The notes under the pieces were generated by a model, which made no database searches, was not told where the DNA came from, and saw nothing but the letters and a program-made list of their open reading frames with translations. The position numbers and the translations under genes are program-made. Shown here in pieces: positions 21,376-38,582 of a DNA stretch of 64,000 bases (positions are counted from its first letter, which is position 1; every line of letters begins with the position of its first letter). The DNA is from Mycolicibacterium parafortuitum (GTDB taxonomy: Bacteria > Actinomycetota > Actinomycetes > Mycobacteriales > Mycobacteriaceae), in NCBI RefSeq assembly GCF_010725485.1, contig NZ_AP022598.1, positions 4,464,001 through 4,528,000 on the forward strand. Direction: 5' to 3'.

Positions 21376-21998
21376 GGCGGTGTGCTGTGGGGAGTCAAGG
21401 GTCAGCCGACGGTATTGCAGGAGGCCAACGTCCGCGTCGACCTCAACCGAGAGTGGGTGTCGCACTGGCCTTTCGCCCCCACCGATCACCGGTCCCAGTT
21501 CACCCCGAAGCGAGTCACCATTGAAACACCCGCGGGCGAGGTCGTCGAGCAACTCGACGAACCCCGTGATTCATTTGCCGGGTACGTCATGGAGACCCCG
21601 TGGAGTAACGCGCAGGTCGCCTACTTCGCCGGATACACGATGTGGACCTACCTGACATCTCCGTTCATCCTGGCCCGACCGGGGGTGTTGACCGACGAGA
21701 TTGAGCCGTGGGCGGAGAGACTTGGCGACGGCTGCGCGTGACCTTCCCCCGGGACATCGCCACCCACAGCACGGTCCAGACCTTCTATGTCGACGACACG
21801 GGGCTGTTGCGTCGCCACGACTACGACGTGGATATCCAAGGCAGCAATCCCGCCGCTCGCTATCTGCTCGATCCTGTCACCGTGCAGGGAATCGTGTTGC
21901 CCTCCAGATTGCGCATCTTCCCGCGCAACGATGACAACACGGCGGCCGCTGATCCGCTGATCGTCTCGGTGGACCTATCCGACTTCGCGTTCGAGTAA
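21376..21998 (+). pseudogene. C-terminal part of the IS-disrupted gene, with an additional frameshift
   Basis: Continues the gene begun at 18876. Frame one reads from GGVLWGVKGQP to TDEIEPWAE. A net one-base loss around 21703-21720 then moves the rest (GETWRRLRVTFPRDIATHST to SVDLSDFAFE) into the next frame, while frame one stops after GDGCA. The two parts join naturally as EPW..GGETWRRL. The gene is thus broken twice, by IS21 and by an indel. No catalytic motif is recognised. Confidence 0.8.
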
Positions 21999-22164
21999 CC
22001 GTAGGCGACACATCCTGCTTACGGGTGGTCAGATCCGACGGCGGCGTCGCCGGATGGAAGACAGTCAATGTGCCTATGGCTCTCGCGGTCTGCAGGCAAG
22101 AGAATCCGGAGATGACGCGGATCCGAGGCGATCTCGCGAGCGATCGATGAAGGGTGCACAGCAT

Positions 22165-23004: not shown

Positions 23005-24398
23005 CCCCGCAGGTGATTGAGGTCGATCTGCTCGTCATCGGATTCGGCAAGGGCGGCAAGACGTTGGCGACTGAGGTGGGCCGACAAGGTCAGCGTGTCG
23101 TGCTGGTGGAGGAGTCGGCGCAGATGTACGGCGGCACCTGCATCAACACGGGCTGTGTGCCGACGAAGTCGATGGTGTACCGCAGTGAGCACTCGCCCCG
23201 CGGCTCGTCCGGAACGTCGGTTTACGCGGATGCGGTCGCTGCCACAGAGCGGCTGACCACCGGGTTGCGGGCTACGAATCTCGCGGCACTGCAGTCGGTC
23301 CCGTCATTGCGGGTGCTCACCGGTCGGGCGAGCTTCATCGATGCGAACTCGGTCGCGGTAGAGACCGAGGACGGTCTCGCCACGGTGGTGGCGCGCGACA
23401 TCGTCATCGGTACCGGCTCAACACCGGTGATTCCCGACCTACCCGGCGTGCGGCATAGTCCGGTCGTGGTCACCAGTGCGGAGTTGCTGCGGCGTGCCTC
23501 GCGCCCGGACCGGCTTGTGATTCTCGGCGGCGGCTACATCGGTTTGGAGTTCGCGTCGATGTACGCCGGATACGGCACCTCCGTGACCGTTCTGGAGCAA
23601 CGTCCGGCCGTTCTGGCACATGAGGACCCAGACATCGCCGACGCTGCAGTTTCTGTCCTGTCCGGGAGGGGAGCCACGATCCTCACCGGCGCCGAAGTCA
23701 CTGAAGTGCAGACTGTTCCGCGGCCGGGCGCCCCCCCATTGGCACGCGTGGCGTATCGCATCGGCGGACGCGCCGCCACCGTCGAGGCCGACGTCGTGCT
23801 GATCGCGCTCGGACGCACGCCCAACTCCGCCTATCTCCGACTTGATCGGGCCGGGGTGGAGATGACCGACACCGGTGCCGTCGTGGTCGATGACTACCGC
23901 CGTAGCAGCCAACCCCACATCTATGCGGTCGGGGATGTCAACGGCGGACCGCAGTTCACCTACATCTCTCTCGACGACTACCGCATCGTGCTCGATCAGC
24001 TCGGCGGTGCTGCCGAACCCAGGTCTGCCGCCCAGCGCCGAGCAGTTCCGAACTGCCTGTTCCTGAGCCCCCCACTGGCACGTGTCGGCCTTACCGAAAA
24101 CCAAGCGCGCACCGCGGGTTACGACCTCAAAGTGGCGGCCAGCCCGGTGGTGAACCTGGCCACCGTGGCAAGAGCCCGCATCGTCGATGACACGGCCGGG
24201 ATGATGAAAGTGGTGGTGGACGCGGAAACCGACAGGATTCTCGGCGCTGCCCTGCTGTGTCACGACGCACAGGAGGTGATCAACATCGTCGCCCTGGCGA
24301 TGCGCCACGGCATCACCGCATCGGTATTGCGGGACGAGATCTACACCCATCCGTCCATGTCGGAGTGTTTCAACCAGCTGTTAGGACTGCTGCAATGA
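23001..24398 (+). CDS. RclA-like flavoprotein pyridine nucleotide-disulfide oxidoreductase
   Basis: A 465-aa FAD/NAD(P) class I disulfide reductase. The FAD motif is the unusual GFGKGGKTLA (residues 14-23) and the redox-active pair is C47/C52 in MYGGTCINTGCVPTK. Both features are diagnostic of the RclA branch (E. coli RclA, a hypochlorous-acid-induced Cu(II) reductase) rather than lipoamide or mercuric reductases. The second Rossmann motif is ILGGGYIGLEFASM; the C-terminal His-Glu is in HPSMSECFNQ. The GTG start and the 3' ATGA overlap place it in the middle of an operon. Oxidative or chlorine stress function is inferred. Confidence 0.85.
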   Translation: MTPQVIEVDLLVIGFGKGGKTLATEVGRQGQRVVLVEESAQMYGGTCINTGCVPTKSMVYRSEHSPRGSSGTSVYADAVAATERLTTGLRATNLAALQSVPSLRVLTGRASFIDANSVAVETEDGLATVVARDIVIGTGSTPVIPDLPGVRHSPVVVTSAELLRRASRPDRLVILGGGYIGLEFASMYAGYGTSVTVLEQRPAVLAHEDPDIADAAVSVLSGRGATILTGAEVTEVQTVPRPGAPPLARVAYRIGGRAATVEADVVLIALGRTPNSAYLRLDRAGVEMTDTGAVVVDDYRRSSQPHIYAVGDVNGGPQFTYISLDDYRIVLDQLGGAAEPRSAAQRRAVPNCLFLSPPLARVGLTENQARTAGYDLKVAASPVVNLATVARARIVDDTAGMMKVVVDAETDRILGAALLCHDAQEVINIVALAMRHGITASVLRDEIYTHPSMSECFNQLLGLLQ

Positions 24399-25051
24399 AG
24401 TTCGACCCTACGAACACCGCGGTCGTGGTCATCGATCCGCAGATCGACGTCCTGAGTCCCACCGCACGCAACTGGGCGTCCGTCGGCGCGAGTGTCACCG
24501 AGAACGACACAGTGGCCCACCTCGCCCAACTCATGGAAACCGCCGTCGCCCAGGGGTATCCGCTGATCATCTCGCCGCATTACTTCTATCCGTCTGATTC
24601 GCAGTGGTTGTTCAACGGGCCGCTGGAGTCCGACGAGTTCGCCACCGGAACGTTCGCCCGCGTTGGGGCCCTGGATTTGACCGACTTCGCGGGTTCGGGC
24701 GCAGACTGGCTACCTGCGCTGGCGCCCTATATCAACCGCCCGACCACCACCGTCGCGAGCCCCCACAAGGTCTTCGGGCCGCAGACCAACGACGTTGTCT
24801 TACAGCTACGGAAGCGAGGATGCGACCGCGTCATCCTCGCCGGGATGTTGGCGAACATGTGCGTCGAGTCTCACCTGCGTCACCTTCTCGAGGACGGATT
24901 CGAAGTTGCGGTGGCCGTGGATGCGGTGGCGGGCCCCCGTCACCCCGCCTGGGGCGACGGGTATCAGGCAGCGCTGGTGAACTATCGGTTTCTCGCGCAC
25001 GCGGTGTTGCCGACCGGAGAAATCGTCTCGGCGATGACCGGCGCGGCATGA
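24395..25051 (+). CDS. Isochorismatase-like cysteine hydrolase
   Basis: A 218-aa cysteine hydrolase with the family triad: Asp in VVVIDPQIDVL, Lys in VASPHKVFGPQ and Cys in GMLANMCVESHLRHL. It lacks the aryl carrier domain of siderophore isochorismatases, so it is probably a nicotinamidase/YcaC-type amidase or imidase. It overlaps the RclA-like gene by ATGA and converges on the alcohol dehydrogenase, whose stop is 2 bases away. Confidence 0.87.
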   Translation: MKFDPTNTAVVVIDPQIDVLSPTARNWASVGASVTENDTVAHLAQLMETAVAQGYPLIISPHYFYPSDSQWLFNGPLESDEFATGTFARVGALDLTDFAGSGADWLPALAPYINRPTTTVASPHKVFGPQTNDVVLQLRKRGCDRVILAGMLANMCVESHLRHLLEDGFEVAVAVDAVAGPRHPAWGDGYQAALVNYRFLAHAVLPTGEIVSAMTGAA

Positions 25052-25052
25052 A

Positions 25053-26078
25053 TCACTGAGCGAGGGTGAAGTCGAGGACGACGCGGAATCGTGCGCGGCC
25101 GGACATCATTCGGTCGTAGGCGCGCGGTGCTTCGTGAAAGGGGAGTGGTTCGATCATCGGGGCGATCTGGTGCGTGAGGCTGAATGCGAGGTTGTCTTCG
25201 TTATCGATGGCGGATCCGGTGAGGCTTCCGATGATGCTGCGCCCGCCGAAGATCAGATCGGGTGTGTGGACCGGTACCGGTTCTGGTGAGGCTCCGACGA
25301 CGATCATTTTGCCCCGTGGTTGGAGTCCGGCTACCAGTCCGGCCATCGATGCTCCGTTGGCGGCCGTGGCGATGATCGCTGTCGCCCCGCCGAGTGCGGT
25401 TAGCGCGGCGGCGGGGTCTTCGGCGGCGCTGTCGATGTAGTGGTCGGCGCCCAACGTCGAGGCCAGTCGAGCCTTTTCGGTGCCGCGGGCTAGTGCCGCG
25501 ACGCGGTAACCCATTTTCTTGGCGTACTGCACGCCCAGATGTCCTAATCCGCCGATACCCTGTACCGCCACCAGGGAGTTCACCGGCGCCTGGGCGACGC
25601 GCAGGGCGTTGAACACGGTCACCCCGGCACACAACAGGGGTGCGGCCGTCAGCGCGTCGAACGCCTCCGGAACCCGCACCAGCCCAGAGGCCCTGGCGTA
25701 GACGATCTCGGCATACCCGCCGTCGACGGTTGTCCCGGGCTGGGGTTGGTCGGTGCAGTTGACGAAGTCACCGCGGCGGCAGAAGTCGCACTGACCGCAG
25801 TGGCCGCCCAGGAATCCCACCCCGACGCGGTCACCGACCTGCCACCGAGGTTCCACCCCGGCGCCGACGACATCAATGGTCCCGACTACCTCGTGACCGG
25901 GAACCATTGGGGTCGTCGGGTCTGGACGCTGTCCCTCCACGGCCAGAACATCGCTGTGGCATACCCCGCACGCGGCCGTCCGGATCCGCACGTGCCCGGG
26001 GGCGGGGTCGTGCAGTTCGCGGTCGACGAGGGAGAATTCGCGATGTCCAGTGACCTGATATGCCCGATAAGAGTTCAT
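25053..26078 (-). CDS. Zinc-dependent alcohol dehydrogenase (medium chain)
   Basis: A 341-aa MDR alcohol dehydrogenase. Catalytic zinc ligands are in CGVCHSDVL (Cys) and VPGHEVVG (His-Glu). The structural zinc site is the four-Cys loop HCGQCDFCRRGDFVNC. The cofactor motif is GIGGLGHLGVQ. Closest in style to AdhA-type NAD(P)-dependent alcohol/aldehyde reductases. It is downstream of the LuxR ATPase regulator (gap 59 bases, same strand) and could be its target or co-transcribed. Confidence 0.88.
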   Translation of the reverse strand: MNSYRAYQVTGHREFSLVDRELHDPAPGHVRIRTAACGVCHSDVLAVEGQRPDPTTPMVPGHEVVGTIDVVGAGVEPRWQVGDRVGVGFLGGHCGQCDFCRRGDFVNCTDQPQPGTTVDGGYAEIVYARASGLVRVPEAFDALTAAPLLCAGVTVFNALRVAQAPVNSLVAVQGIGGLGHLGVQYAKKMGYRVAALARGTEKARLASTLGADHYIDSAAEDPAAALTALGGATAIIATAANGASMAGLVAGLQPRGKMIVVGASPEPVPVHTPDLIFGGRSIIGSLTGSAIDNEDNLAFSLTHQIAPMIEPLPFHEAPRAYDRMMSGRARFRVVLDFTLAQ

Positions 26079-26137
26079 GTATCCATGCCATCAGCTCCAG
26101 CGGCGTCGCGGCATAAGTACGTTGACCACAAGTACGG

Positions 26138-28882
26138 CTACTCGCCGGCGGGCGTGGCGTTGTCGAGTTCGATGGCGTCTCGTAGTTGAGCGCGGCGAGT
26201 GATGCCGAGCTTGGGGAAGATCTTGTACAGGTGCGCCGCAACCGTCCGATGTGAGATGTAGATTTGGTCGGCGATCTGGCGGTTGGTCAGTCCGGCCGCT
26301 GCGAGCCGTGCGATCTGTAATTCCTGCGGCGAGAGTTTGGTCGTGAGCACGTCGATTGCCGATGCCACGCCTGGCACCTGCACGCCGGCGGCGCGCAGTT
26401 CGCCTCGTGTGCGTTGAGCCCAGGGCGCTGCTCCGCGGTGTTCGAAAAATCTTAGTGCTGCGGCTAACTGGGTGCGTGCGTCGATGATGCGTCGTTGTCG
26501 TCGGAGCCATTCGCCGTAGCTCAACTGGGTGCGGGCGTACTCCAACGGCGCTTGGGCCTCGGCGTCCTCGATGTCCAGCGCGGCGTGGAAGTGGTGCTCT
26601 GCGTGCTGGTCCGTACCGGCGATCAAGGCCCGGCTGCGGTGTACCAGCATGACGATGTGTGGGGAACCCAGCGCGCTCGCCTCGGTGTCGATCTCGTCGA
26701 CAAGCTGGCAGATCACTCGGGTGTGGCCACTGGCGACGGCGGCTTCGGTGAGGTCGGCGATAGCCCAGCGACGGGAACTGCGGTCACGGTTCATCTGCGA
26801 AAGTTCGGTGAAGGCGCGCTCGCTGTCGTGTGTGCTCAGAGCAAGCAGGCCACTGGCCCAGGCCAGGTCGTCGAGCCACAGTAGGGGAGTGTCGCTGGGC
26901 AGGTTCTGTTGCGCTGTCGCCAGTGACTGCTGAGCGGATTTGGTATCGCCCTGCCATGCTTGGATCCGCGCCAGCAGGGCGGCTGCAGCGCCCATGCTGA
27001 GCCCGAGATCCGCATCGGTGGCGATCCGGAATGCGTTGTGCGCGCTGACGGCGGCCTCGGTCAATTGCCCGGCGATGATCTGCGATCGCGCTGAGCCGCG
27101 CAGCGCCTCACACTCGATCGCGGGCGCACCTGTCCTTCGGGCCACCTTGATGGAACCGTCCCAGCATGACTGAGCGGTCGCCAGATCAGAAGCCGACTCG
27201 GCGGCCAACCCCATCGACATCAGCGCCGTCAGATCATCACTCAGGGCATCCTGCAATGTTGCGGCGCGGCAACGGAACTGGCGGGCATACTTGGTGTCCT
27301 CAAGGGTCGCCAAGGCCACTTCGACTGCCGGGTGGTCCAGGTGCTCGATTTGGTGCAGGCGCTCGGCGATCAGATCACGGTCACGTTCGTCGAGTCCGTG
27401 CATCCGACACTGCGCTGCCGCGGCGGCGAGCAGGCGGATATGGGTGTCCAACTCACCGTGGCTTCCCAACCGGTCCGCCAGCGCCACCAGATCCTCTACC
27501 GGCGGCGCCGTTACGCCGGTTGTGACGGCGAGGGTGAAGCGCGCGAACGCAAGATCGAACTGGTGCCCGAGATCAATGGCCAACGGCTCGGCCTCATCGA
27601 GGATGTCCATCGCTTCGGCGGTCAGCCCTGCCCGGTACGCGGGTTCGATTGCGCGGACGAGGCGGCGGATGCGATCGTTCGCCGACGGCGACAGCGCGGC
27701 CGCACGCCGCCATGCGCGTGCCGCTTCTGCATTGGCGCCACGAAGTTGTGCGGTCTGGGCCGCGGTTTCGAGGTCGGCGGCGACCCCCTCATCGGATCTA
27801 TAGGCCGCCGCCGACCGGTGCCAGGCGGCTCTCATCGCATCGGTGGTCGCGTCGGCCAGCGCCTGGTGGAAGGCCGAGCGTTGCGTCAGAGGTATCGCCC
27901 GGTAGGCCACAGACCGGATCAGGGGATGGCGCACCTGGAGCGATCCGGCGACGACTGTGATCAGCCCGCACCGCTCGAGTGGATCCAGATCGGCATCTGA
28001 CAGACCGACGTGCCGCGCCGCGTCGGCAAGTTCAGCCATTGCAGTATCTCCGCCGGCGGCGATCAGTCCCAGCATCCGGCGACTGGGTTCAGGAACGCCA
28101 TCCAGTTGCTCCCGGAAAGCGCGTTCGATGCGACGCGTCGTCGGCAGAGGCGTCGGCGACGGGTTTCTCTGTTCCTCGCCGCCGGCCAACAGTGCCTTCG
28201 TGAGTTCGGCGATGGCCAACGGATTTCCCGCAGCTTCGGTCAAGACGCGCCGTTGGGTAAGCGCGCTGACCCCGTGCCCGTCGACACCGGCCAGCGCCTC
28301 CTCCATCAGGACGCGCGACGTCGCGATATCCAGTGCCTCCAACTGGAGGTGCGGCAACGACGAGAGTTGTGACGATTCCCCGTCGATGCGGGGCCTTGCG
28401 GCGCACAGCATCATCACCGGCGAGTTCGTGATGCGGCGCCCGATGAAGGTCACAACGTGCAGCGTGGAATCGTCGAGCCACTGCGCATCGTCGATCACGA
28501 GCAGCATGGGTCGGGTGGCCGCGGCCTCCTCGATCAGCCCGAGCGTCGCGACGCCGATCAGCAGCGGGTTGGGCACGCCGGCCTCAGCGAGGCCGAGGGC
28601 GGCCAGCAGGGTCGTCCGCTGGTGCTCTGGCAACGCGTCGGCGCTACTGAGAATCGGGTGCACCAATTCGTGCAGACCCGCGTAGCCCACCGTGGCCTGC
28701 GACTGCACCCCGGCACACGACAAGACGATGAACCCCTGGCGCTTCGCCCACCCTGTGGCAGCCGCCAGCAGGGTGGTCTTCCCGATCCCAGGCTCGCCTT
28801 CTACGACCAATGCACATCCGCGCTCTGCCAACGCGGTGGCGGCGGCGGTGATCGCCTCCAGCTCGTTGTCGCGGCCGATCAC
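26138..28882 (-). CDS. Large LuxR-family regulator with AAA ATPase (second paralogue)
   Basis: A 914-aa LAL regulator. Walker A is EGEPGIGKTTLLA (about residues 28-40) and Walker B MLLVIDDAQWLDD near 130. A central TPR-like region is followed by the C-terminal LuxR HTH (LSPQELQIARLAAAGLTNRQ, then SHRTVAAHLYKIFPKLG). It is divergent from an HxlR gene with only a 47-base gap, so their promoters must overlap. It shares architecture, but only moderate identity, with the regulator at 952-3687. Confidence 0.9.
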   Translation of the reverse strand: MIGRDNELEAITAAATALAERGCALVVEGEPGIGKTTLLAAATGWAKRQGFIVLSCAGVQSQATVGYAGLHELVHPILSSADALPEHQRTTLLAALGLAEAGVPNPLLIGVATLGLIEEAAATRPMLLVIDDAQWLDDSTLHVVTFIGRRITNSPVMMLCAARPRIDGESSQLSSLPHLQLEALDIATSRVLMEEALAGVDGHGVSALTQRRVLTEAAGNPLAIAELTKALLAGGEEQRNPSPTPLPTTRRIERAFREQLDGVPEPSRRMLGLIAAGGDTAMAELADAARHVGLSDADLDPLERCGLITVVAGSLQVRHPLIRSVAYRAIPLTQRSAFHQALADATTDAMRAAWHRSAAAYRSDEGVAADLETAAQTAQLRGANAEAARAWRRAAALSPSANDRIRRLVRAIEPAYRAGLTAEAMDILDEAEPLAIDLGHQFDLAFARFTLAVTTGVTAPPVEDLVALADRLGSHGELDTHIRLLAAAAAQCRMHGLDERDRDLIAERLHQIEHLDHPAVEVALATLEDTKYARQFRCRAATLQDALSDDLTALMSMGLAAESASDLATAQSCWDGSIKVARRTGAPAIECEALRGSARSQIIAGQLTEAAVSAHNAFRIATDADLGLSMGAAAALLARIQAWQGDTKSAQQSLATAQQNLPSDTPLLWLDDLAWASGLLALSTHDSERAFTELSQMNRDRSSRRWAIADLTEAAVASGHTRVICQLVDEIDTEASALGSPHIVMLVHRSRALIAGTDQHAEHHFHAALDIEDAEAQAPLEYARTQLSYGEWLRRQRRIIDARTQLAAALRFFEHRGAAPWAQRTRGELRAAGVQVPGVASAIDVLTTKLSPQELQIARLAAAGLTNRQIADQIYISHRTVAAHLYKIFPKLGITRRAQLRDAIELDNATPAGE

Positions 28883-28929
28883 GTGCCGACGGTACCACCC
28901 TGGATTGGAGATGCCAACTCAGATAGGGT

Positions 28930-29394
28930 GTGGCGATGCGTACCGATCCGTGGTCCGACGATCCCTGTCCTATCGCGCGCGCTATGGCGGTCATCGGGCA
29001 GCGGTGGTCGATGCTGATCATTCGCGAAGCATTCCTCGGCAGAACCCGATTCTCGGAGTTCAAGGAGCAGTTAGGAATTGCCTCGGATATCCTCAGCGCC
29101 CGGCTGGCCGAACTTGTGTCGGCCGGCGTACTGGAGACCGTGGAATACCGCGAGCCGGGCGACCGCACCCGCAGCCGTTACGAGTTGACGCAATCCGGTC
29201 GCGACTTGGTCGTGGTCCTTGGAGCAATCGGCCAGTGGGGCTACAAACACGCAGACCGAAGCAAAGGCACGCCGTATCGATTCGTCGACAGCAATGGCGA
29301 GCCAGTCATCGCAGGCTTCCGGCACCGTGACGGTACCGCGGCGGCCAGCACGGATGTCCGCCTGGTCAGCGCCGCCGCGCCGATCTCGCAATGA
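28930..29394 (+). CDS. HxlR-family transcriptional regulator
   Basis: A 154-aa HxlR regulator. The N-terminal Cys is in WSDDPCPIARAMAVIGQRWS; the recognition region is TRFSEFKEQLGIASDILSAR; the wing is EPGDRTRSRYELTQSGRDL. The C-terminal ~50 residues form the extended domain of larger HxlR proteins. The start is GTG 28930 or, slightly better by composition, ATG 28936. It is divergent from the LuxR ATPase. Confidence 0.87.
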   Translation: MAMRTDPWSDDPCPIARAMAVIGQRWSMLIIREAFLGRTRFSEFKEQLGIASDILSARLAELVSAGVLETVEYREPGDRTRSRYELTQSGRDLVVVLGAIGQWGYKHADRSKGTPYRFVDSNGEPVIAGFRHRDGTAAASTDVRLVSAAAPISQ

Positions 29395-29961
29395 CAACAC
29401 CCGGATCTACCTGCCGGCCGCACCCGCGACGTGACGCGACCTGCCACTGAAGCGAGCAAGTTCGCGCATTACCCGGCGCTGCAGCCGACACGAGTCCCGC
29501 TGAGCACGGCCTTTGCCGGGAAGTATCGCAACACGGGAAGAACGAACGACGGGAGGGCTATGGCCGCACGAGGCCGGTGTCCGTTAACGGCTGATTTGAC
29601 GGCGTAATACAGCGAACTGCCGACCCGAGTGAGAAAAAATCCTTATGCTCTCCTCCTCAATTGAGTTGGCGGACCGGGGCAGCTGCCCTGCGGTCAGCGC
29701 GAACTGGCCGCATCAAGAGACCGGACAACAAGAAGAGCAGCCGAATGATCTGTTCCTACAATGGAATTGAGCAGTTACTGGTAACCCGCCATATTCGATT
29801 CCTGCATATTCTTCCAGTTGGTCTGGCCGGGCAGACTGCGGCGGTCGGTACTGGATCGAACTAGCTCCGCCCGAGGCGGACATGATCATGGATACCGTCC
29901 TGCGGTTATCCACGCCGATGTCCATCCTGTGGGGCCGTGAGGTTCACGCCCCTGTGCTGGG
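29395..29961. other. Intergenic/left junction region of the island
   Basis: A 567-base region between the HxlR gene and the first island gene. It holds repeat copy B (29775-29811) and a short open frame at 29882-29965 listed separately. No full gene is supported. The left island boundary is most likely here, but I cannot define an attachment site. Confidence 0.5.
29775..29811. repeat. Copy B of the 37-base dispersed repeat
   Basis: Matches 18518-18554 at 33 of 37 positions in the same orientation. It sits at the left margin of the recombinase island. A weaker, inverted resemblance (14 of 20 bases) is seen at 38436-38455 on the opposite side of the island, which may be chance. Confidence 0.6.
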
Positions 29962-29965
29962 CTAA
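29882..29965 (+). pseudogene. Short fragment resembling the start of a PAS-type sensor domain
   Basis: A 27-codon open frame containing VLRLSTPMSILWG and ending HAPVLG. In PAS-containing sensor kinases and phosphatases a segment of the type STPM.I.WG.........Y.P.LG..HP is common, so this could be a truncated gene end at the island margin. It is very short and the identification is tentative. Confidence 0.22.
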
Positions 29966-31086
29966 GTAGTGTTATCCGTCGCAATGATCGGAGGTTGCGG
30001 CACGCTCCTGACGTTTAACGATCCCTCGGCGATTCCGTGATGAAAGCTCGCTGCGCGTGGGTTAGGTGGCACCGTGAAATCCTCGCTCGGCGGCGCAGTG
30101 CTCACCATCAAAGTGTCGAGGTGATCTAGGTCCGGCCACGCAAAGACAATTGACTTCCAACTCGTGACGGGAAATCCCTTACGCATGAAATAGAGGCCGT
30201 GGGGGCGGTAGAGCCGCCTGACGGGCGGTGTCTCGAAACCTATCAGGAACTCGATGCCAGCGATTTGAACGTACCCGCCCAGTATTTCGCTGCTCATATT
30301 CGCGAGGCGCAGGCGCGCGGATTTGGTGATGATCGGTTGGTCGTTGTCGCGATCAAGCAGCATGTACATGCCCCAAGTGGGAGGCCAGTCGGCTCCACGC
30401 CACAGGATCTCAGCCAATTGTTCGGTCGTAACCCCTAGTCGAAAGCGGTATGCAGGCGAGCCGTCGATCTCCATCGTTCCTGACTCGATGGCACCCCATA
30501 TGACTTTGAGGAGCCAGAGCTCGAAGAAGGGTCCGCTGGCCAAAACGAACCCGCGCGAGAATTCGCTCCTGCGGTCATTGCCGAGGTATTTGAAAATGTC
30601 GAGCTGGTCCTCCACGAGGTACCGGAAAAATTCAGCGGCCATCTTGTCCAACGGCCAGAGTGCGCTGTTGTGTCGGTGGCACAGCATCCGCGTCGAGAGA
30701 CCCTGCCGACCAACAGTCTTTGACCGTTGAGCCTTGTCCTGCCAGGACGCGCCTTCGACGATGACGACCTTGCCGTCGTGAGAAATGGCTTCGAGCACAT
30801 CATCGGTGATGAAGTGCTCACGGGTGAGCTTGTCGTCGCAGTCGTTGCTTCTGCGTGCGTAACAGCCAGGGTTGGCGTACCCGGTCCGCGGTCCGGTCAG
30901 TAGCGGCGGAGGTCGCGTGGCGATCCAGCGTTGCCCCTCCCCGAGATGGCATTCCCGTGACTGACGGCCGGATCCGCAAGGGCAGCGGTGTTCTGGTGCC
31001 GGGTGAAAGTACTGATTGAACTCGACGTCGGCGGTACGCACCACCCCGACCAATGGCTCGATGGGCTCCTGTAAGCCTTCGCTCAT
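29962..31086 (-). CDS. SEC-C motif protein with HNH-like cysteine/histidine motifs
   Basis: A 374-aa protein. A SEC-C zinc motif is present at residues 35-47 (CPCGSGR...CH). Then come C75, C83, an E90-H91 pair (LTREHFITDDVL) and C136-x2-H139-N140 (LCHRHNSALW). The order C..C, EH, CxxHN resembles an HNH/treble-clef endonuclease fold. The C-terminal half has no recognised domain. ATG 31086 (MSEGLQEPIEPL) is chosen over 31209 because SEC-C proteins rarely carry such a basic N-terminal extension. A nuclease function is inferred from motifs only. Confidence 0.68.
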   Translation of the reverse strand: MSEGLQEPIEPLVGVVRTADVEFNQYFHPAPEHRCPCGSGRQSRECHLGEGQRWIATRPPPLLTGPRTGYANPGCYARRSNDCDDKLTREHFITDDVLEAISHDGKVVIVEGASWQDKAQRSKTVGRQGLSTRMLCHRHNSALWPLDKMAAEFFRYLVEDQLDIFKYLGNDRRSEFSRGFVLASGPFFELWLLKVIWGAIESGTMEIDGSPAYRFRLGVTTEQLAEILWRGADWPPTWGMYMLLDRDNDQPIITKSARLRLANMSSEILGGYVQIAGIEFLIGFETPPVRRLYRPHGLYFMRKGFPVTSWKSIVFAWPDLDHLDTLMVSTAPPSEDFTVPPNPRAASFHHGIAEGSLNVRSVPQPPIIATDNTT

Positions 31087-31221
31087 GGAAAAACGATAGC
31101 GTCCGCCTCCGACACTGAATCCCAATGCGAGGCGGTTCCGGCGGCCTGTGCTTCTGGCTACGTCGCGAAGGCAGCGCAAAGTAGCCACCAGCGTGGCCAT
31201 TTCTAGCACTGCAGCCGAGCA

Positions 31222-31962
31222 GTGCCTTCCGTGTCCGAGGGTCTGCCATGCGATTATCTGTGGGTGGATTGGCTAGTCAATTGGTGGCACGGTCTATTTT
31301 GGACACAAGCGTGGGGGAACGCTGCCGAGTGGTTCGGGGCAATCGGAACCGGGGGAGCCTTCATAGCGGCCGTGGTGTTCTTTATCCACGAGCGGCGAAC
31401 TGCAAACCGAGGCCAAGCATCGTTAGTCTTCGTCAGAAAAGTAAAGGGCGCTTACGTCGAGATCACGAACAGGTCCGATAAATCGATCTTCGATGTCCGC
31501 ACGGTAGTAGATCCGATGTCGATGATGACTGCTCTGACAATTGGTGAGGTCAATCAAACGCCGGCAATGGGTGTAGGCGGATCCAACACCTACAAATATC
31601 CGTCGCACGAATACTATCTCCTGATGCGGCGTTTGCTAAAGGAAAAAGCGCGAAGGTTTAGTGCGAACTCACCCAATCAAGGGGATGTTGAGATACCGGC
31701 GGGTGAGAAACACGAAATTTTTGTGCCCGAGCTGATGTTCAATTTGGACGAAGCGTACGTCTTATTTCTCGACGCCTACGGCAGGAGTTGGGCGGTCAAT
31801 TCTCGCACCCGGAAAATTATCGGCGCGGGTCAGTACAGGCCTAAATCAGAGAGATTCAAGGAACGATTTTCCTCTCGGTGGTGGATTGCTAAAAATGAAG
31901 TCCACTATATATGGGACAATTACATGGATCACCGCAGCGGGAAGCCGGGCCCTCCGGAGTAA
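31222..31962 (+). CDS. Membrane-anchored protein of unknown function
   Basis: A 246-aa protein with one N-terminal TM helix around residues 30-55 (AAEWFGAIGTGGAFIAAVVF), followed by a beta-rich cytosolic domain (VKGAYVEITNRSDKSIFDVR). The helix type EWFGAIGT..A...A..... is frequent in actinobacterial and phage-associated orphans. It is divergent from the SEC-C protein, so promoters lie in 31087-31221. The composition is AT-richer than the chromosome. The GTG start is weakly supported. The function is unknown. Confidence 0.65.
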   Translation: MPSVSEGLPCDYLWVDWLVNWWHGLFWTQAWGNAAEWFGAIGTGGAFIAAVVFFIHERRTANRGQASLVFVRKVKGAYVEITNRSDKSIFDVRTVVDPMSMMTALTIGEVNQTPAMGVGGSNTYKYPSHEYYLLMRRLLKEKARRFSANSPNQGDVEIPAGEKHEIFVPELMFNLDEAYVLFLDAYGRSWAVNSRTRKIIGAGQYRPKSERFKERFSSRWWIAKNEVHYIWDNYMDHRSGKPGPPE

Positions 31963-32119
31963 ACGTGCTAGCCTCGTTCCCCAACTAGCTCGTTACCATG
32001 CATGTGAATGCTGGCTAGCCATTCGGTAGTTTGGATTCGTGCATAATCGGTCTGCATAGCCCGCGATAAGAAAGGGCGGGCCCAATGCTCTAAAAATAGG
32101 AAATCGCGGTTTGGCACCG

Positions 32120-34339
32120 CTAAACGAAACTACCCCGCACTCCGCGAATTAGCCGCTTAGAAATCCCTTGCAAAAGAACTTCGGGGGCGCCACCGTCCTC
32201 TTCGTTCACGAACACCATGACATCCCGTTCGGCACGACTGATCGCCAGGTAGAGCAGCGACAGCAACCGGCTTTTCTCGTTAGGGGCAACGTAGGGGGCC
32301 TGAAGGTCGGGAATGCCAGCAACAATGACCGTCTCGAACTGCAAACCAGCAAGATACTCTGCAGGCCCAACCAGTAACCCACGGCGCCGATAGCCTAAGC
32401 CATCAACGTCGCCCCGGCCGGTGATAGACGCGACGTGATAACGCCCTGACTGAGAAATTTGATGCGCTAAATTGGTAAATCGAGGCCATTGGCGCGTATC
32501 AACAACTGCTAACGCCACCCGCCCGTGCGGGTAGACATCCCGAATTACGCGGTATATGTCAGTTTCTTCTGAATTATGAGATTCCGAAGTTGTTAATGTT
32601 GGAATAGGGCCATCGTCCTTAGTCGATTCCACTTTTGAAAAATCGATATCCCACTCATGCCCTAAGTTGTGAGTCGGAAAGAACAAGTGAATATGTTTGA
32701 TCAACTCCAAGATCTGCGGCGTGAAGCGGTGAATTCTAGTTAGCTCAAGGTTGGTAACCTCCCCGAAAGAAATTTCGGGAGCAAAATTAGTGGATGACTG
32801 CACGTGGTCCGCAGCGATTCCAATAAATGATTCCGACGGCGACTGTCGTGGATCAAGAGCCATGAATATCTTCGGATAACTTCTCACGTCGCGGGTCAAG
32901 TAGTGCAGAACCTGCCGTTCAAGCGGACTAAACAAATGAAACTCATCGACAAAAACAAGATCATACCCCTCATCTTTGCGTGACCTGTTCCATGCATGGG
33001 TTTCGAGGTGGCTCAGAAAGTCTGCCAGTACCTGGTCTGAAGTCATTAACGAGCGCGCTTCGAGACCCTCCATGAAGCGCGTGTACAGCAGAAATACAAC
33101 CTCTAGGTCAGCCCTCGATGAAAGGGGCAACATCCATGGTGCTCGCGGAATCTGAAAATACCTTGTGTCGGAACCCGCTCCGGGGAATATCGCGGCTGCG
33201 CCTATGACCGAACCGAATTCAACCAAGAGGTCCCATGCCAAAGCGCTCCGGTCCTGTTCATTAGCGGAGTCGAGTCTCGATCGAAGTTCACTAGAAGCTT
33301 TTGCACGGTATGTAACCCAGTCGCCCTCGACAAAATTATCGATCACGTCCATAATTTCGTCTAACTGTGCCTGCTTTCCGCTGAAGCTGTCCTCTCCAAG
33401 TACGGTGAAAGTCGAAACACTTGATGCATATGCGGGTGAAATATTCTCGGCAATTTCAAGCAGCGGGAAGACATCTATTTCTGGCAGCGGCCCGAGGCTC
33501 ATCGAATCAATGGACTCGGAAATCTCTGTGGCTAGCGACCAACTATGCGTTGTGACAAGGACGCGGATGTCCTGATCTACCTGCCTCGCTCGAAGGACCT
33601 CCGCAATCGCCTTCATGGTGAGAGCGAGGGTTTTCCCAGAACCTGCGGGGCCGCGTAACCGAATTGAACTTGTCGCCGGCGCGTCGATGAAGGATCGCTG
33701 ATCGTCACTAATCGCCTCAAGCCATCGATCATATGACCAACCCTTGGTTGGCGACTGAGATAGCGCAGGCAGGTACATATCCACATCAGCTGCGCTGGAC
33801 TGGCCTTCGAAGAAATCCGTTGCTGACTGGATGACTCTGTTCCACTGGGCTTCCAAATCAGGAAGCGTGGGCCTGCCCGCGAGATCGAAATCTTCGAGGG
33901 TGGTTTTGCTGTCCGATGTAGTAGTGCGCCAATACACGACATCTGACCGGGTCCCGGGCAATACCTCCGCAATCCAGCGTGTTTCACTCGCCCCTCTGGG
34001 AACCGCGAAAAATGCGACAAGATTGCCGTGCTTGTACTGGTGCCAACCTCTGGGTAAGGATAGCTTCCCAGAAATCTTGACGCGGTCAACAAAAGAGGCC
34101 ATCCGCCCTAGAACGCTGCGACGAGATCTAGCTAGATCCGCCGGAGTGTGCTTGTCCGTCCATCCTTCGTCGCGAATAAGTACTACACGCTGTGTCTCGA
34201 GATCATCGTTAGCCGTAACCAAGTACTCAGCTTCGTCTGTCTCGCTCAGGTGGAGGTCGACGGATGCATCTACCGCCTCTGGCGCCAAACCTGTCGCTAG
34301 AACGCGGAGTGCGTTCGCGGACGTAACAAGAGGCTTCAT
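32120..34339 (-). CDS. SF1 (UvrD/Rep-like) helicase with long N-terminal extension
   Basis: A 739-aa helicase. Q motif DDQRSFI (about 212-218); Walker A GPAGSGKT (230-237); motif II YDLVFVDEFHLFS with DE at 465-466; motif III LDPRQS (495-500); motif V near GLQFETVIVAGI; motif VI LYLAISRAERDVMVF. The ~200-residue N-terminal region has no recognised domain, and no nuclease domain is seen. Its ATG overlaps the stop of the 276-aa gene upstream (ATGA), so they act as a pair. Such helicase pairs are typical of defence modules, but the family here is not one I can name. Confidence 0.82.
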   Translation of the reverse strand: MKPLVTSANALRVLATGLAPEAVDASVDLHLSETDEAEYLVTANDDLETQRVVLIRDEGWTDKHTPADLARSRRSVLGRMASFVDRVKISGKLSLPRGWHQYKHGNLVAFFAVPRGASETRWIAEVLPGTRSDVVYWRTTTSDSKTTLEDFDLAGRPTLPDLEAQWNRVIQSATDFFEGQSSAADVDMYLPALSQSPTKGWSYDRWLEAISDDQRSFIDAPATSSIRLRGPAGSGKTLALTMKAIAEVLRARQVDQDIRVLVTTHSWSLATEISESIDSMSLGPLPEIDVFPLLEIAENISPAYASSVSTFTVLGEDSFSGKQAQLDEIMDVIDNFVEGDWVTYRAKASSELRSRLDSANEQDRSALAWDLLVEFGSVIGAAAIFPGAGSDTRYFQIPRAPWMLPLSSRADLEVVFLLYTRFMEGLEARSLMTSDQVLADFLSHLETHAWNRSRKDEGYDLVFVDEFHLFSPLERQVLHYLTRDVRSYPKIFMALDPRQSPSESFIGIAADHVQSSTNFAPEISFGEVTNLELTRIHRFTPQILELIKHIHLFFPTHNLGHEWDIDFSKVESTKDDGPIPTLTTSESHNSEETDIYRVIRDVYPHGRVALAVVDTRQWPRFTNLAHQISQSGRYHVASITGRGDVDGLGYRRRGLLVGPAEYLAGLQFETVIVAGIPDLQAPYVAPNEKSRLLSLLYLAISRAERDVMVFVNEEDGGAPEVLLQGISKRLIRGVRGSFV

Positions 34340-35166
34340 TTCAACGCATCTCCCATGAGCTCAAAATAGACATCGCGGGCCTCTTCGTACTCATGAGGTA
34401 GCCCAATAGCCATGAACACGGTGGCAAAGCGCTGAACCAGCGCATGTGTGTAGCGATCGCGTAGTCGGGAGATGCGCTTGTATTTGGCATCCCTATGTTT
34501 CGGGCCGATGGCAACTTCAGGCTCCCAGACCTGCTCTAGGTGGCGGAGGTATGCGAAGTATCCTCTGTCGTGAGATGCGGCAAATGTGCTGATGAACATC
34601 GCATCACCAGGAGGGCGCTGATAGGCCTCCCTTACCGGATCCAGCACTCTTGCGACAGCATTCTTACGCGTAGGCGGTTTATCGCCGCCCAATTGGCCGT
34701 CGACGAGGTTTCTCAAGGCCTGATTCAGTTCGTCCGCGGACGCGTCTAATTGCTGAATCGATTCGATTGCAGCCCTGGCGATTACGGCATCTTTCTCAAG
34801 CAGCTTCAAGGCTTGGATTATGGAGTCCGCGGACTCTTCCGTGGTCCAGTGCCGCAATCGCTCCGCAGACACTCGCGGCCCGCCGATGCGGTCTAGTATT
34901 TTGAGCAACTCGCCAACAGGCTTCTCCACGAGTCGGTTTCGCACACGAGGGACTACCATCTCGAGAAGATACTCTTCGGCTGTCAGTAGTGGTATGCAAG
35001 TGACTCGACCATGATGCTTGTTGAAAGCGAGGTCGCAATCGGCCGTAATCACCATTAGGTGGCGCTCCCACATTGCAGCATTGATATCAATGGCCTCCAG
35101 AATGTCACCTTGGCGAAGAGGCTCCGATGTGCTGAAATCACAAAATTCGGCAAACACATCGGCCAT
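34336..35166 (-). CDS. Unknown 276-aa protein coupled to the SF1 helicase
   Basis: The conserved-looking N-terminal motifs RQGDIL (18-23) and MVITADCDLAFNKHHGR (Asp43, Cys44, Asp45) resemble uncharacterised proteins often found beside ATPases in variable islands. The remainder is helical and charged, with ARVLDPVREAYQRPPGDAMF near the middle. ATG 35166 (MADVFAEFCDF) is chosen, 32 bases after the recombinase-like gene's stop; the longer frame overlaps that gene. It overlaps the helicase by ATGA. It could be a sensor, an adaptor or a novel nuclease; none can be asserted. Confidence 0.7.
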   Translation of the reverse strand: MADVFAEFCDFSTSEPLRQGDILEAIDINAAMWERHLMVITADCDLAFNKHHGRVTCIPLLTAEEYLLEMVVPRVRNRLVEKPVGELLKILDRIGGPRVSAERLRHWTTEESADSIIQALKLLEKDAVIARAAIESIQQLDASADELNQALRNLVDGQLGGDKPPTRKNAVARVLDPVREAYQRPPGDAMFISTFAASHDRGYFAYLRHLEQVWEPEVAIGPKHRDAKYKRISRLRDRYTHALVQRFATVFMAIGLPHEYEEARDVYFELMGDALK

Positions 35167-35198
35167 CGGTGCGTCCCCTTGATGTCTGTTGGTACCGA

Positions 35199-36713
35199 TC
35201 ATGCGCCGCTGCCACCACGACTCTCGACTCGAATCGCCGAATACCGAACCCAAGGCTGCGCTGCGAGTGCAGCGTGCCAATGCACCACTTGGTCGCTGTA
35301 GCCCAACATCTCGGCAACGACCGGAGGCGGTACCTGGATCACGAGTTCGCGCAGTGCAGTGTTACGAGCCCCCAGCAGGTCGATCCCGAGCCACCGAAGA
35401 CGATCCATCAGTGTGTTGGGGTGTAGGTGCTCGCCGGGCCGATACCCCGGAAACAGCCAGGGATTGTCTGCTCCTGCTGTGCGAAGGTTTGGCCTGTTGG
35501 TGACGTGGCTCTTGAGCAGTGCAGCGAATGGCTCAGGAACGGGCGAGGGAGTAACGCCGAGTTCGAGCGATAGTCCGTCGGGAGAGACAAGCACCTTGCT
35601 CATCGGTATGGCTGCGACCTTCACGAGTGGCTGGGCGTAGAGCAGTAGCAGCGTTCCGGCGACCCGGTAGGGGAGCGATTCGCTGTCGCCGGACAGAAGC
35701 TCTCGAATCCACTCGAGCCGCTGATCTTGCGTGAGAACCCGGACCGTCTTGGCCTGTCGATGTCCGAGCGTGATTGATCGGTTGACCCGCATCTTTTGGC
35801 ACCAAATGATGAACGTCCGGATGAGGTGCCGTGTGGTCGGACCCCCTGCGACCCAAAGGTCCACGTCTTGCTGTGTGCAGTCGGCGATAGTTCGGCCACG
35901 TTCAGTTCGAAGCCACTCGAGGAACTTCAGTGCCTCAGTGATGTCCTGCTTCGAGGCGTGAACGGGTCCGCGCGTCGGCTTCCCGGCGAGTGCCAACTCG
36001 TTGATACGTTTGAGGTGGTGCCAAAAAGCGAATTGCCTTATCGGCTGCGCTATCTCGGCGTCAGACACCGGGCGCAGCTTGTCTTCGATCCACCGCTCGA
36101 AGTAGGCAAGATACTTATCACGTGCGGTAATTACGTCATGGTGCTGCAGGATGGCCCGTAGGTGGTCGACGTGCCGGCCCGCGGGCTCGTACTGGTCCAG
36201 GCCGTCGTGGGTGAGGGGAGTGGTGCCATCTCCGAGGGAGCGTAGGAGTGCTTGAACCTTGTCCGATCGTTTCCACGTGATGATGCTCTCGGCGCGATCG
36301 GCTGCGCACAGGGCGTCGATAAGTTGTGTGAAGCTCGCGGGGGAGTCCGGGTGGAGGAACGCCCGCTCAAGGTCTTCGCGGAGGCTGCAACGTGCGCATA
36401 CATTGCCGCGGTAGGGTCGCCGCTCCTCGTTGCACGACGTGCAGTAGAAGTTCTGCCGGATACGTGCGCAGTCTCGGCAGACCGCTTGATCGCTGATTTC
36501 CAGCCGGCCCGGCAAAAGGCGGTGGAATCCGCAGCTGGGACAGTCGCCGTACAGGCTGGTTGCTTCGTAGTAGCAGGAATTGCAGATGCAGCCTTCTGGC
36601 CATGTTGCTGCCGTGCGCCGCATCTCGCGGTGGCAACGAGCGCACTCCATTGATCCGTCGGTGACTTTGGGACGTCCGCGAACGGTATTCCGGCGCAGCG
36701 GTTCAATCGTCAT
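35199..36713 (-). CDS. Zinc-ribbon, tyrosine-recombinase-like accessory protein (catalytic residues absent)
   Basis: A 504-aa protein. The first ~115 residues carry at least five CxxC knuckles (ECARCH, CICNSC, CPSC, CRDC, CTSC, CARC), i.e. several zinc ribbons. The middle and C-terminal parts follow the tyrosine-recombinase layout: core-binding-like ITEALKFLEWLRTERGRTIA, then a C-terminal RNTALRELVIQVPPPVVAEM and LGYSDQVVHWHAALAAQPWV. The HxLR...H...Y catalytic set is not conserved there. ATG 36713 overlaps the XRE gene by 11 bases. It is probably a DNA-binding partner of the integrase. Confidence 0.75.
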   Translation of the reverse strand: MTIEPLRRNTVRGRPKVTDGSMECARCHREMRRTAATWPEGCICNSCYYEATSLYGDCPSCGFHRLLPGRLEISDQAVCRDCARIRQNFYCTSCNEERRPYRGNVCARCSLREDLERAFLHPDSPASFTQLIDALCAADRAESIITWKRSDKVQALLRSLGDGTTPLTHDGLDQYEPAGRHVDHLRAILQHHDVITARDKYLAYFERWIEDKLRPVSDAEIAQPIRQFAFWHHLKRINELALAGKPTRGPVHASKQDITEALKFLEWLRTERGRTIADCTQQDVDLWVAGGPTTRHLIRTFIIWCQKMRVNRSITLGHRQAKTVRVLTQDQRLEWIRELLSGDSESLPYRVAGTLLLLYAQPLVKVAAIPMSKVLVSPDGLSLELGVTPSPVPEPFAALLKSHVTNRPNLRTAGADNPWLFPGYRPGEHLHPNTLMDRLRWLGIDLLGARNTALRELVIQVPPPVVAEMLGYSDQVVHWHAALAAQPWVRYSAIRVESRGGSGA

Positions 36714-37038
36714 CGCTGAGGATCCGAGCACGTTTGGGGCGGATGGCCTTGTTGAGTTCTACGACGTTCTCTCGGCCGGCGCTGGCGGCCTTCTTGCGGG
36801 CGTCGGCAGCGGTGACAGTGACGAGATCGTCTGGGCCGCAGTCGAAGATGTCGCAGAGGGCGGCGATGAGCTTCAGAGAGACCCGTTCGGGTCGTTGGTG
36901 GACGAGTCGGTAGACCTGTGGCCGTGACAGCGTGATGCCGCGTTCATTCAGCCGTGGGATGAGGTCGGTACTGTTGTGCATCTGATTACCCGCCATGAGC
37001 TCGGCGAGCCGCCATTGGTAGTCGACATCGCGTTTCAT
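36703..37038 (-). CDS. Small XRE-type helix-turn-helix protein in the recombinase trio
   Basis: A 111-aa protein with a Cro/C1-like HTH (LIPRLNERGITLSRPQVYRL, then QRPERVSLKLIAALCDIFDC) and a basic C-terminal tail. It overlaps the integrase stop (ATGA) and the next gene's start, so all three are translationally coupled. It likely regulates the cassette or acts as a recombination directionality factor; the first is more usual for this fold. Confidence 0.82.
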   Translation of the reverse strand: MKRDVDYQWRLAELMAGNQMHNSTDLIPRLNERGITLSRPQVYRLVHQRPERVSLKLIAALCDIFDCGPDDLVTVTAADARKKAASAGRENVVELNKAIRPKRARILSDDD

Positions 37039-38273
37039 CCGGCGCCGCCGTTCAGCTTCGACTCAAGCGCTGCGGCGATAGTGGCGTCGAGCGCATTTCG
37101 CAGCGTCCGGGTGCGGTAGTCGCTGCTGACACAGCTGTAGATCGCTGTGGTCGACGCGTGCTCATGACCCATTTGGTGCTGAACGAACATCGCATCCCAG
37201 CCGGCTTCGAGCAAGTGCGTTGCATAGGATCGCCGGAACGAGTGGAGATCGAGGCCGGGCGAGAGGTCGAGATCGTCACAGTACCGGCGGAACCGCCTGA
37301 TGAGTGTGGTTTCCGAGACGAGATTTCCGCGTTCGCTGGGGAACAGGTCGATCCCGTCGTCCATATGGGGCTGACCATTCTCCAGCCAGTCGACCAGCAC
37401 TTCGGGCGTCCAATCGAAGACTGTCAGGACGCTGCGCCGCTTCGGCGGGGAGCCCTTCTTCGCTTTGCCGTATCGCACATGAACCAGGCCGAACTTTCCG
37501 AACTCCTTAGCGTGGGGGTTCCTTGCTAAGTCGACCGTCTGCAAGTGGGCCAGTTCGTTGAACCGCAACCCATACGAGTAGGCGATCTTGAACATCACGG
37601 TGTCGCGGTATGCGGGCAGCCAACCCTTTCTGCTCGAAGCTACGACGGCAGATACCTGCTCGTCGGCATGATCGAAGAAGTCTTGAAGTTCGCGCTTGGT
37701 GAATGCGCGTTTCTCGGGCCGGGCCTCGTTCTCCTGGACGTGTCGAGCGGTATTCCAGTCGAAGAAGACTTGGGAGGGGTGAGTCCCGAACAGTGCTTCG
37801 CAGACGCGGTCCCAGCCGTAGTCCGGATTGCTGACATAGGAGCAGAATTGTCGCAGGCCGACCTGATACGAACGGATCGACGACTGGGCGAGTCCGTGGA
37901 TACTCCGAAGATCGCCGAAGAACTCGTCGACCATGGCGACGGTCCAGGTCCATGGGAACTCGTTCGAGTGCTCGATGAAGCGCTGCACCTGCGTGATGCG
38001 TGAGTCGATAGTCTCGAACTGCAGATTGCGGCTGAGCTGCTGGTTGCGCCAGCCCTGGAGCATTTCGGCGACTGTCTGTTCTTCGGGGTGCAGGCGTTGA
38101 TTCATCTGATGCAATATGCAGTGGGTTAACTTGACATAATGTGGCTTATCGGTGAACGCCTCAACAGTAGACCGCCCGAGCCGGCCCCGGCCGTCCGCCC
38201 ATCCGGATGGCCGATCCGAAACTAGTTGGGAGTAATCCGGGAAAACCAACTCCCAGTTCGAATCAGATTTCAA
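37035..38273 (-). CDS. Tyrosine recombinase / integrase
   Basis: A 412-aa phage-type integrase with a complete active-site set: Arg237 (SYGLRFNELAHL), the basic segment VRYGKAKKGSPPKRR, His344/Arg347 (DLHSFRRSYAT), His370 (MGHEHASTT) and the nucleophile Tyr379 (TAIYSCVSSDY). The N-terminal core-binding domain is at about 60-150. It is the first gene of the minus-strand trio; its upstream gap 38274-38582 probably holds the promoter and one end of the element. Confidence 0.9.
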   Translation of the reverse strand: MKSDSNWELVFPDYSQLVSDRPSGWADGRGRLGRSTVEAFTDKPHYVKLTHCILHQMNQRLHPEEQTVAEMLQGWRNQQLSRNLQFETIDSRITQVQRFIEHSNEFPWTWTVAMVDEFFGDLRSIHGLAQSSIRSYQVGLRQFCSYVSNPDYGWDRVCEALFGTHPSQVFFDWNTARHVQENEARPEKRAFTKRELQDFFDHADEQVSAVVASSRKGWLPAYRDTVMFKIAYSYGLRFNELAHLQTVDLARNPHAKEFGKFGLVHVRYGKAKKGSPPKRRSVLTVFDWTPEVLVDWLENGQPHMDDGIDLFPSERGNLVSETTLIRRFRRYCDDLDLSPGLDLHSFRRSYATHLLEAGWDAMFVQHQMGHEHASTTAIYSCVSSDYRTRTLRNALDATIAAALESKLNGGAG

Positions 38274-38582
38274 TCACTTAATGATTGATTTATCGGTTAG
38301 GTGTCGAGATGCGGATGCTGGTCAGTGCGGGCCCGCCTGTCGATTCTTCGGCGGCCCACCCTCCGTCAGTCGGCCGCCCCATCAAAGCGTCACAGTGACG
38401 AATTGATATGTCCCGCTGGGTCATTGACCATTCAGTATGCGACGTTACGAGTGACACCCACATGGTTAGATCGGCTGTCAGGCGGAGGCGACGATGGCTC
38501 CTGAGGAGCCGACTGTGGCTGAGCTGTCACTGGACGTGGCCGAGCGTTGCGTCTGATGGCGGATTTGGCGTGACCGGCGGCC
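38274..38582. other. Intergenic right margin of the island
   Basis: A 309-base region with the integrase promoter side and the likely right boundary. It contains a 15-base palindrome GGCTCCTGAGGAGCC (about 38494-38508) and a weak inverted match to the 37-base repeat at 38436-38455. No gene is supported. Confidence 0.5.

Follow-up and report, generated by a model that had tools for sequence, protein, structure and literature searches.

A three-gene recombinase module that probably docks mobile elements beside dif in actinobacteria

A recombinase trio adjoins a predicted dif site in Mycolicibacterium parafortuitum

This report concerns a putative mobile element in the genome of Mycolicibacterium parafortuitum, and it is based on a 64,000-nucleotide stretch of DNA (NZ_AP022598.1, positions 4,464,001 to 4,528,000, forward strand) that we refer to as the window. 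The element extends from about 29,776 to 38,128 and carries three overlapping genes on the minus strand, here called the trio, followed by cargo genes. Labels beginning with G or L denote genomes and loci that were compared with this window. The first gene of the trio codes for a tyrosine recombinase (Int; 37,035 to 38,105, minus strand), the second for a 111-amino-acid (aa) helix-turn-helix (HTH) protein of the XRE/Cro type (36,703 to 37,038, minus strand; PF13443, 4.4e-14), and the third for a 504-aa zinc-ribbon protein (35,199 to 36,713, minus strand). The Int and HTH genes overlap at 37,035 to 37,038, and the HTH and zinc-ribbon genes share 11 bases (36,703 to 36,713). These coordinates agree with an earlier sequence-only reading of the same DNA, in which the overlap of the three minus-strand genes had been pointed out.

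Int matches Pfam family PF00589 (3.2e-21). Its best NCBIfam models are XerC and XerD, both scoring under their cut-offs, and its match in the PDB is XerD. The catalytic set that had been described for this protein (Arg237, His344, Arg347, His370, and Tyr379, numbered on a 412-aa open reading frame) is complete and is identical in all 11 aligned Int sequences, including that of the window. The start that had been assumed for the 412-aa protein needs correction, however. The open frame runs on to 38,273, and its first 56 residues are read through dif and flanking DNA. The first in-frame ATG within the element is at 38,105, which yields a protein of 356 aa. A comparison with genome G027 reveals 11.9 kb of 99.95% identity up to position 38,094, where the two sequences diverge. 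Relative to G027, about 260 bp spanning the 5′ end of the integrase gene are absent from the window, and G027 then has the same conserved end. Because this deletion removed the 5′ portion of the Int gene together with most of the adjacent element end, the copy in the window has probably lost its mobility, and intact copies of the element are present in relatives.

The zinc-ribbon protein has six CxxC motifs followed by a predicted tyrosine recombinase fold that lacks the catalytic tyrosine, which is how its recombinase-like C terminus had already been characterized. We therefore regard it as a predicted, catalytically dead recombinase fold, on the basis of a structure model (pTM score of 0.45) in which the packing of the domains is not trusted. 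Public records label this protein “recombinase XerD.”

Directly outside the element, at the integrase end of the trio, is the 28-bp sequence TTCACCGATAAGCCACATTATGTCAAGT (38,129 to 38,156, minus strand). We predict from its sequence that this is dif, the site used for unlinking tangled chromosomes, which here forms the chromosomal edge of the target. The sequence that follows the conserved end in G027, TTGACATAATGTGGCTTATCGG, is one that we take to be an actinobacterial dif. In the whole 6.04-Mb genome, the site in the window is the sole match with three or fewer mismatches. At least one such match occurs in 108 of the 148 relatives, nearly always as a single copy. The site in the window also agrees in form with the dif sequence of F. 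alni given in a published report (PMC3025954).

Both ends of the element can be placed. The integrase-proximal end (int-end; 38,095 to 38,128, minus strand) carries TGATTCATCTG and TGCATATT motifs, with TTAA beside dif, and is the remnant of the deletion described above. The opposite, or far, end is marked by the 37-bp motif TTACTGGTAACCCGCCATATTCGATTCCTGCATATTC (29,775 to 29,811, plus strand), which was located through the similarity of 29,401 to 29,980 to other dif loci; no such motif was found in five shuffled versions of the window. The boundaries of 29,400 and 38,582 that had been proposed for this island are thus replaced, on the left by the end motif at 29,775 as the best placement and on the right by dif. 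The lower GC content that had been noted is evident (57.0% for 29,776 to 38,128 versus 66.0% elsewhere in the window). The element is thus bounded by dif on one side and by a conserved far-end motif on the other, and the same arrangement of trio and dif is present in other genera and on plasmids.

The spacing between the trio and dif is conserved

Among the named loci, which are the best 80 of 206, 55 were testable because they include an Int match with sufficient DNA upstream of it. The others either lacked an Int match (seven loci, five of them near a contig end) or had too little DNA (18 loci). A dif or dif-like site with at most eight mismatches is present on the same strand upstream of Int in 49 of the 55 testable loci, and the mismatches number four or fewer in 42 of the 55, although not all named loci are independent (L139 and L144 are near copies, as are L171 and L172). 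The site is located 324 to 353 bp from the Int match in 44 of the 49 cases and 294 to 458 bp away in the other five. Among 223 random windows taken from the same loci as a control, none has a site with four or fewer mismatches and three have a site with eight or fewer. This fixed spacing recurs across many actinobacterial genera.

The dif rule holds for the clade to which the trio in the window belongs. A dif or dif-like site adjoins trios of this clade in G027, G020, G137, G034, G046, G089, G045, G053, and G023, in both copies of G115, and on a 473-kb contig of G064. In most of the loci compared, Int of this clade starts about 0.2 to 0.3 kb from dif, and it starts nearer in the window and in G046.

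Additional arrangements were observed. Window-clade trios in L046 (G018), L047 (G067), and L164 abut an inverted repeat resembling GTGGATA-n8-TATCCAC instead of dif, which is perhaps another resolution site. A divergent clade of trios is found in the opposite orientation on the other side of dif, as in L045 (G023, around 8,313) and L043 (G022), and the dif site of G023 is flanked by two trios. The divergent trios of G040, G052, G081, G118, G083, and G043 were outside the dif test.

Far-end motifs recur on the trio side of dif and suggest stacking

Matches to the far-end motif were also collected from 25 dif loci, of which 16 contain a total of 27 matches (the window and G027 are near duplicates in these counts). 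All 27 are located on the trio side of dif, and 26 have the same orientation, the exception being in G012. When read inward, the motif resembles by eye the far ends of the elements on plasmid pA (see below) and at L190. Of the 55 testable named loci, 37 have a far end downstream of the trio, and the elements delimited in this way measure about 3.3 to 11.2 kb.

If elements were to accumulate at dif, then the sequence to the left of a far end should resemble an int-end. For this analysis, int-ends were taken as the sequences left of dif, and 24 far ends were evaluated after excluding two from G027 and the reversed one. The left neighbor scores as int-end-like above the 99th percentile of random positions in 14 of the 24 and above the 95th percentile in 17. 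At L177, a far end abuts an int-end as would occur in a tandem. Further copies of the far end are located at greater distances from dif, and since 14 of the 24 abut int-end-like sequence, we infer stacking. The window itself includes a second copy of the far-end motif (18,518 to 18,554, plus strand; four mismatches), whose left neighbor is int-end-like (empirical p of 0.0004). The region from 18,518 to 29,774 probably represents a unit that arrived earlier; it has a host-like GC content (65.1%), and no match to the trio was found within it.

Decayed remnants of elements are present at dif in G009, G029, and G080. Seven loci (L090, L091, L093, L094, L097, L099, and L100) have no intact trio at dif and have one or two far-end motifs 0.35 to 4.8 kb away. 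These short, trio-less units could represent cassettes or elements in decay, and remnants of the zinc-ribbon gene are found in those of L090 and L093. Two other candidates for element ends were considered. A likeness of about 100 bp between 29.5 kb in the window and the int-end of G027 was dropped as a direct repeat, since its score of 68 is within chance (shuffled sequences score up to 63 and other pieces of the window up to 66). When six loci were searched on the cargo side for another dif-like end, nothing strong emerged.

Empty, single, tandem, and circular forms are found among plasmid records

Plasmid pA of Paenarthrobacter ureafaciens AT carries two tandem copies of an element with a period of 4,714 bp, and the first copy starts directly after a dif-like sequence that ends in CTTATGTAAAG. 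The same strain has a 4,712-bp “plasmid pD” (L182, NZ_CP094493.1) that corresponds over its full length to one copy closed on itself. No gene in this record is annotated for replication. We consider it likely that pD is not a plasmid but an excised circle.

Relatives of pA provide the other states. Three of them (L187, L188, and L189) are empty, having the dif-like site (with 5, 4, and 6 mismatches, respectively), TA, and then a homologous flank that is 79 to 81% identical to that of pA, whereas L190 has one trio at the homologous plasmid site. This one plasmid family thus includes empty, single, and tandem states, and a circular record is available from the strain that carries the tandem. Paenarthrobacter and Arthrobacter records, not the strain of the window, are the source of the circle and the empty sites. 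The sequence-only reading had proposed a search for an empty site. Such sites were found on plasmids, and the chromosomal candidate G082 was rejected because it keeps int-end sequence beside dif.

The trio is sporadically distributed and travels as a unit

The expectation that the three genes move together is supported. Apart from five of the 80 named loci in which the zinc-ribbon gene is at most 570 bp from a contig end and no Int match is present, matches to Int and HTH are found upstream of the zinc-ribbon gene in 73 of 75 (exceptions L128 and L176). Among relatives, in 29 of 32 places with a strong Int match, a comparison by hand placed a match to the zinc-ribbon protein no more than 3 kb away (exceptions G030, G024, and G118). 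All three genes were matched in order in 18 of 20 stretches surrounding zinc-ribbon matches; the Int match of L048 is limited to 48 residues, and L049 has neither an Int nor an HTH match.

Some match to the zinc-ribbon protein is present in 41 of the 148 relatives, several being fragments, and the other 107 have none; therefore, the trio is not a housekeeping system. A draw of 296 genomes from the phylum included 11 with a match to the zinc-ribbon profile at 1e-20, counting the genome of the window. Some genomes have two copies of the trio. The zinc-ribbon protein matches 247 plasmid records and no phage records. One contig labeled Vibrio cholerae 35D (L159, WNZI01000055.1) codes for an actinobacterial zinc-ribbon protein (54%), which probably reflects contamination.

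A model for insertion beside dif

Our preferred reading, to which we assign a probability of roughly 0.8, is that the element docks beside dif by means of its own trio, that dif is left whole, and that later elements stack inward. The trio would insert the element precisely at the outer edge of dif without altering this site, and each later arrival would enter between dif and the elements already present. A circle with joined ends would recombine at a short TA/TTA core beside one arm of dif, presumably the XerD-side arm by the naming used for E. coli dif. Int would cut and rejoin the DNA, a role we assign to it because it has the full catalytic set and is closest in sequence to XerC and XerD. 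The TGATTCATCTG repeats of the int-end may be the binding site of the XRE protein, which would thereby set expression or direction, and the zinc-ribbon protein could either contribute structurally to the complex or recognize the arm of dif.

Several observations weigh against this reading. No dif was found upstream of Int in six of the 55 testable loci (L139, L144, L152, L164, L177, and L181); L177 has a far end in place of dif, as in a tandem, and L164 has another palindrome. The trios of G018 and G067 likewise adjoin a different palindrome, those of G022, G023b, and G033 occupy the opposite flank of dif or of a dif-like site, the divergent trios of G011, G091, G113, G057, and G071 have no dif within 620 to 700 bp, and the Streptomyces trio at L186 has no dif-like site. 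The far-end motif was not found in nine of the 25 dif loci, nor downstream of the trio in 18 of the 55 named loci. Seven of the 24 left neighbors of far ends score under the 95th percentile, and the neighbor of the far end at 29,775 in the window is weakly int-end-like (p of 0.056). Finally, pD is 2 bp shorter at its junction than the tandem copies, and G082 is not a clean empty site.

A different account is suggested by IMEXs (LME-1 and the gonococcal island are examples), which also use dif as an address (PMC9765430). According to that report, IMEXs bring a dif mimic with them, depend on the Xer proteins of the host, and leave a second, modified copy of dif. The element might therefore be moved by host XerC and XerD, with the trio as a passenger or helper, and the Xer-like nature of Int would be compatible with this. 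However, no copy of dif is present inside the element (the best candidates have nine mismatches in the window element and 10 in the circle), which disfavors the hijacking of Xer. The single match in the genome at three or fewer mismatches leaves no second copy of that quality at the far end, insertion occurs beside dif rather than within it, and the catalytic residues of Int are conserved. We consider this explanation unlikely.

Ordinary phage-type integration at a target that is near dif by chance, with stacking due to reuse of a hot spot by unrelated elements, is also quite improbable. Both sides of dif are variable, a distant recombinase-like match is present on the other side in G034 and G037, and some trios use other sites, all of which would fit. 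Against this, copies on plasmids likewise follow dif-like sites, and far ends and int-ends form head-to-tail junctions. A resident, nonmobile operon for dif maintenance or terminus function could account for the fixed dif spacing in many genera, but it is very hard to reconcile with the many relatives that lack the trio's zinc-ribbon gene, the duplicate and plasmid-borne copies, the free circle and empty sites, the decayed remnants at dif, and the variable cargo.

Docking by the trio might be part of a broader phenomenon, for which we see the odds as evenly balanced. The actinobacterial dif could be an integron-like accretion platform, in which the trio integrates, dif is the docking edge, and units with matching ends, some lacking a trio, enter successively. 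Related trios would then dock on the opposite side of dif or at different palindromic sites of the resolution type.

Relationship to known integrative elements

Comparisons with known systems were made using the accessible parts of the published descriptions. Romaniuk et al. (2018; PMC6305408) described “XER modules” on Arthrobacter plasmids as putative novel integrative elements that have a three-gene core of “XerD, XRE-family regulator, XerC” and variable cargo. The trio matches this core by description, having a tyrosine recombinase, an XRE protein, and a second Xer-like protein. XER modules are described as inserted between umuC and umuD, although this may not be a defining trait, whereas the neighbors of the window element are dif, an HxlR-type regulator, and a pyridoxal phosphate (PLP) decarboxylase. 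This kind of trio has therefore already been named, and what we did not find in the accessible part of that report are the dif target, the ends, the circle, the stacking, and the point concerning a dead recombinase. More generally, the element type has the hallmarks of integrative elements that use tyrosine recombinases, namely a catalytic recombinase, defined ends, an empty site, and a circle.

Five groups of tyrosine recombinase elements have been distinguished in a report that also describes dead recombinase partners in SEs and GInts (PMC10214605). SEs and GInts resemble the element in having a recombinase operon at one end with cargo behind it, circles, and a small protein (PMC10214605, PMC5385486), as well as a recombinase-fold protein without the catalytic motif (Tfp or GinC), a resemblance that rests here on the predicted fold. 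They differ in having four core genes and two RHRY proteins, whereas the core here has three genes that code for a single catalytic recombinase, zinc ribbons are present, and dif is the target. Tn554-type elements, including actinobacterial ones, have up to three adjacent genes and are site specific (PMC3414803, PMC8138268), and their insertion is reported to occur without target duplication, but they code for two catalytic proteins (TnpA and TnpB) plus TnpC, as opposed to one catalytic and one dead recombinase here.

The sequence-only reading had invoked RIT elements and the gamma-mobile-trio as analogues. RIT elements also have three adjacent genes that include a tyrosine recombinase, but all three of their products are catalytic recombinases, whereas the second gene of the trio codes for an HTH protein and the third for a protein without the catalytic tyrosine. 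Gamma-mobile-trio islands comprise three adjacent genes, including one for a tyrosine recombinase, together with cargo. Membership in either group is not borne out, given the one catalytic recombinase of the trio and its score of 24.5 bits with the NCBIfam GmtY model, for which the cut-off is 340. That reading thus stands with respect to the trio, its travel as a unit, and its varied cargo, and it falls short on these affiliations and on the exact ends. It overlooked the dif address, the true boundaries, stacking, the circular form, and the damage to the start of the integrase gene, as well as the name “XER modules” that was already in use.

Among the matches listed in our literature search, leaving aside subscription papers and preprints, no paper on dif-directed actinobacterial elements was recognizable from its title or the start of its abstract. 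Looking beside dif offers a rule for finding and delimiting widespread, little-described actinobacterial islands. If the docking model is true, then an element can employ its own recombinase to target the dimer resolution site of the cell while causing neither duplication nor breakage, unlike IMEXs. The natural 4.7-kb circle, together with the tandem and empty sites, represents a ready test system for the dead recombinase partner.

Cargo genes and a palindrome on the opposite side of dif

Four cargo genes are located between the trio and the far end in the window. A 314-aa open reading frame (ORF) of no known family (34,336 to 35,280, minus strand) overlaps the zinc-ribbon gene, and its true start is possibly later. 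The next gene codes for a 739-aa superfamily 1 (UvrD-like) helicase (32,120 to 34,339, minus strand; PF00580, 4.6e-07) that has at most a weak likeness to GajB or NERD-UvrD proteins. Family searches assigned no known family to a 246-aa ORF (31,222 to 31,962, plus strand), and a 415-aa ORF (29,962 to 31,209, minus strand) has a weak SEC-C zinc motif (16.3 bits, under the cut-off of 20.4). None of the cargo in the window has a clear match in PADLOC.

As had been anticipated, cargo is variable. The 37 delimited named elements contain 73 ORFs (predicted mechanically) of at least 150 aa between the trio and the far end, and 10 of these elements contain none. A homologue in another element was found for 20 of the 73, 14 of which come from the near-identical pairs L171/L172 and L152/L153. 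When ORFs behind the trio were considered without a cut at the far end, their Pfam content was mixed. At a threshold of 1e-10, 30 PADLOC families matched among 99 such ORFs and five among 102 control ORFs, where the 99 were taken within 6 kb of the trio regardless of the far end and thus include some outside the elements. Each family matched one or two ORFs, and many of the models are for related helicases and possibly matched the same ORFs. Therefore, the difference between 30 and five families does not decide the matter, and we do not claim an enrichment of defense genes.

A palindrome, CGTCACNGTGACG, is found at 38,388 to 38,400 of the window, on the side of dif away from the window-type trio. 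It was rejected as an end of the element because of this location and because it is also present in genomes without a trio. Near the dif or dif-like sites of the named loci, it was found in just 14 of 47. This motif may belong to right-hand element ends or be a motif of the terminus. Whether or not a trio is present, the palindrome is located on this side of dif within 2 kb in 24 of the 25 dif loci compared, and in 21 of 25 it is 237 to 349 bp from dif. Sometimes several copies occur, and matches total 32 within 2 kb of dif (100 kb of sequence) versus seven in 584 kb farther out.

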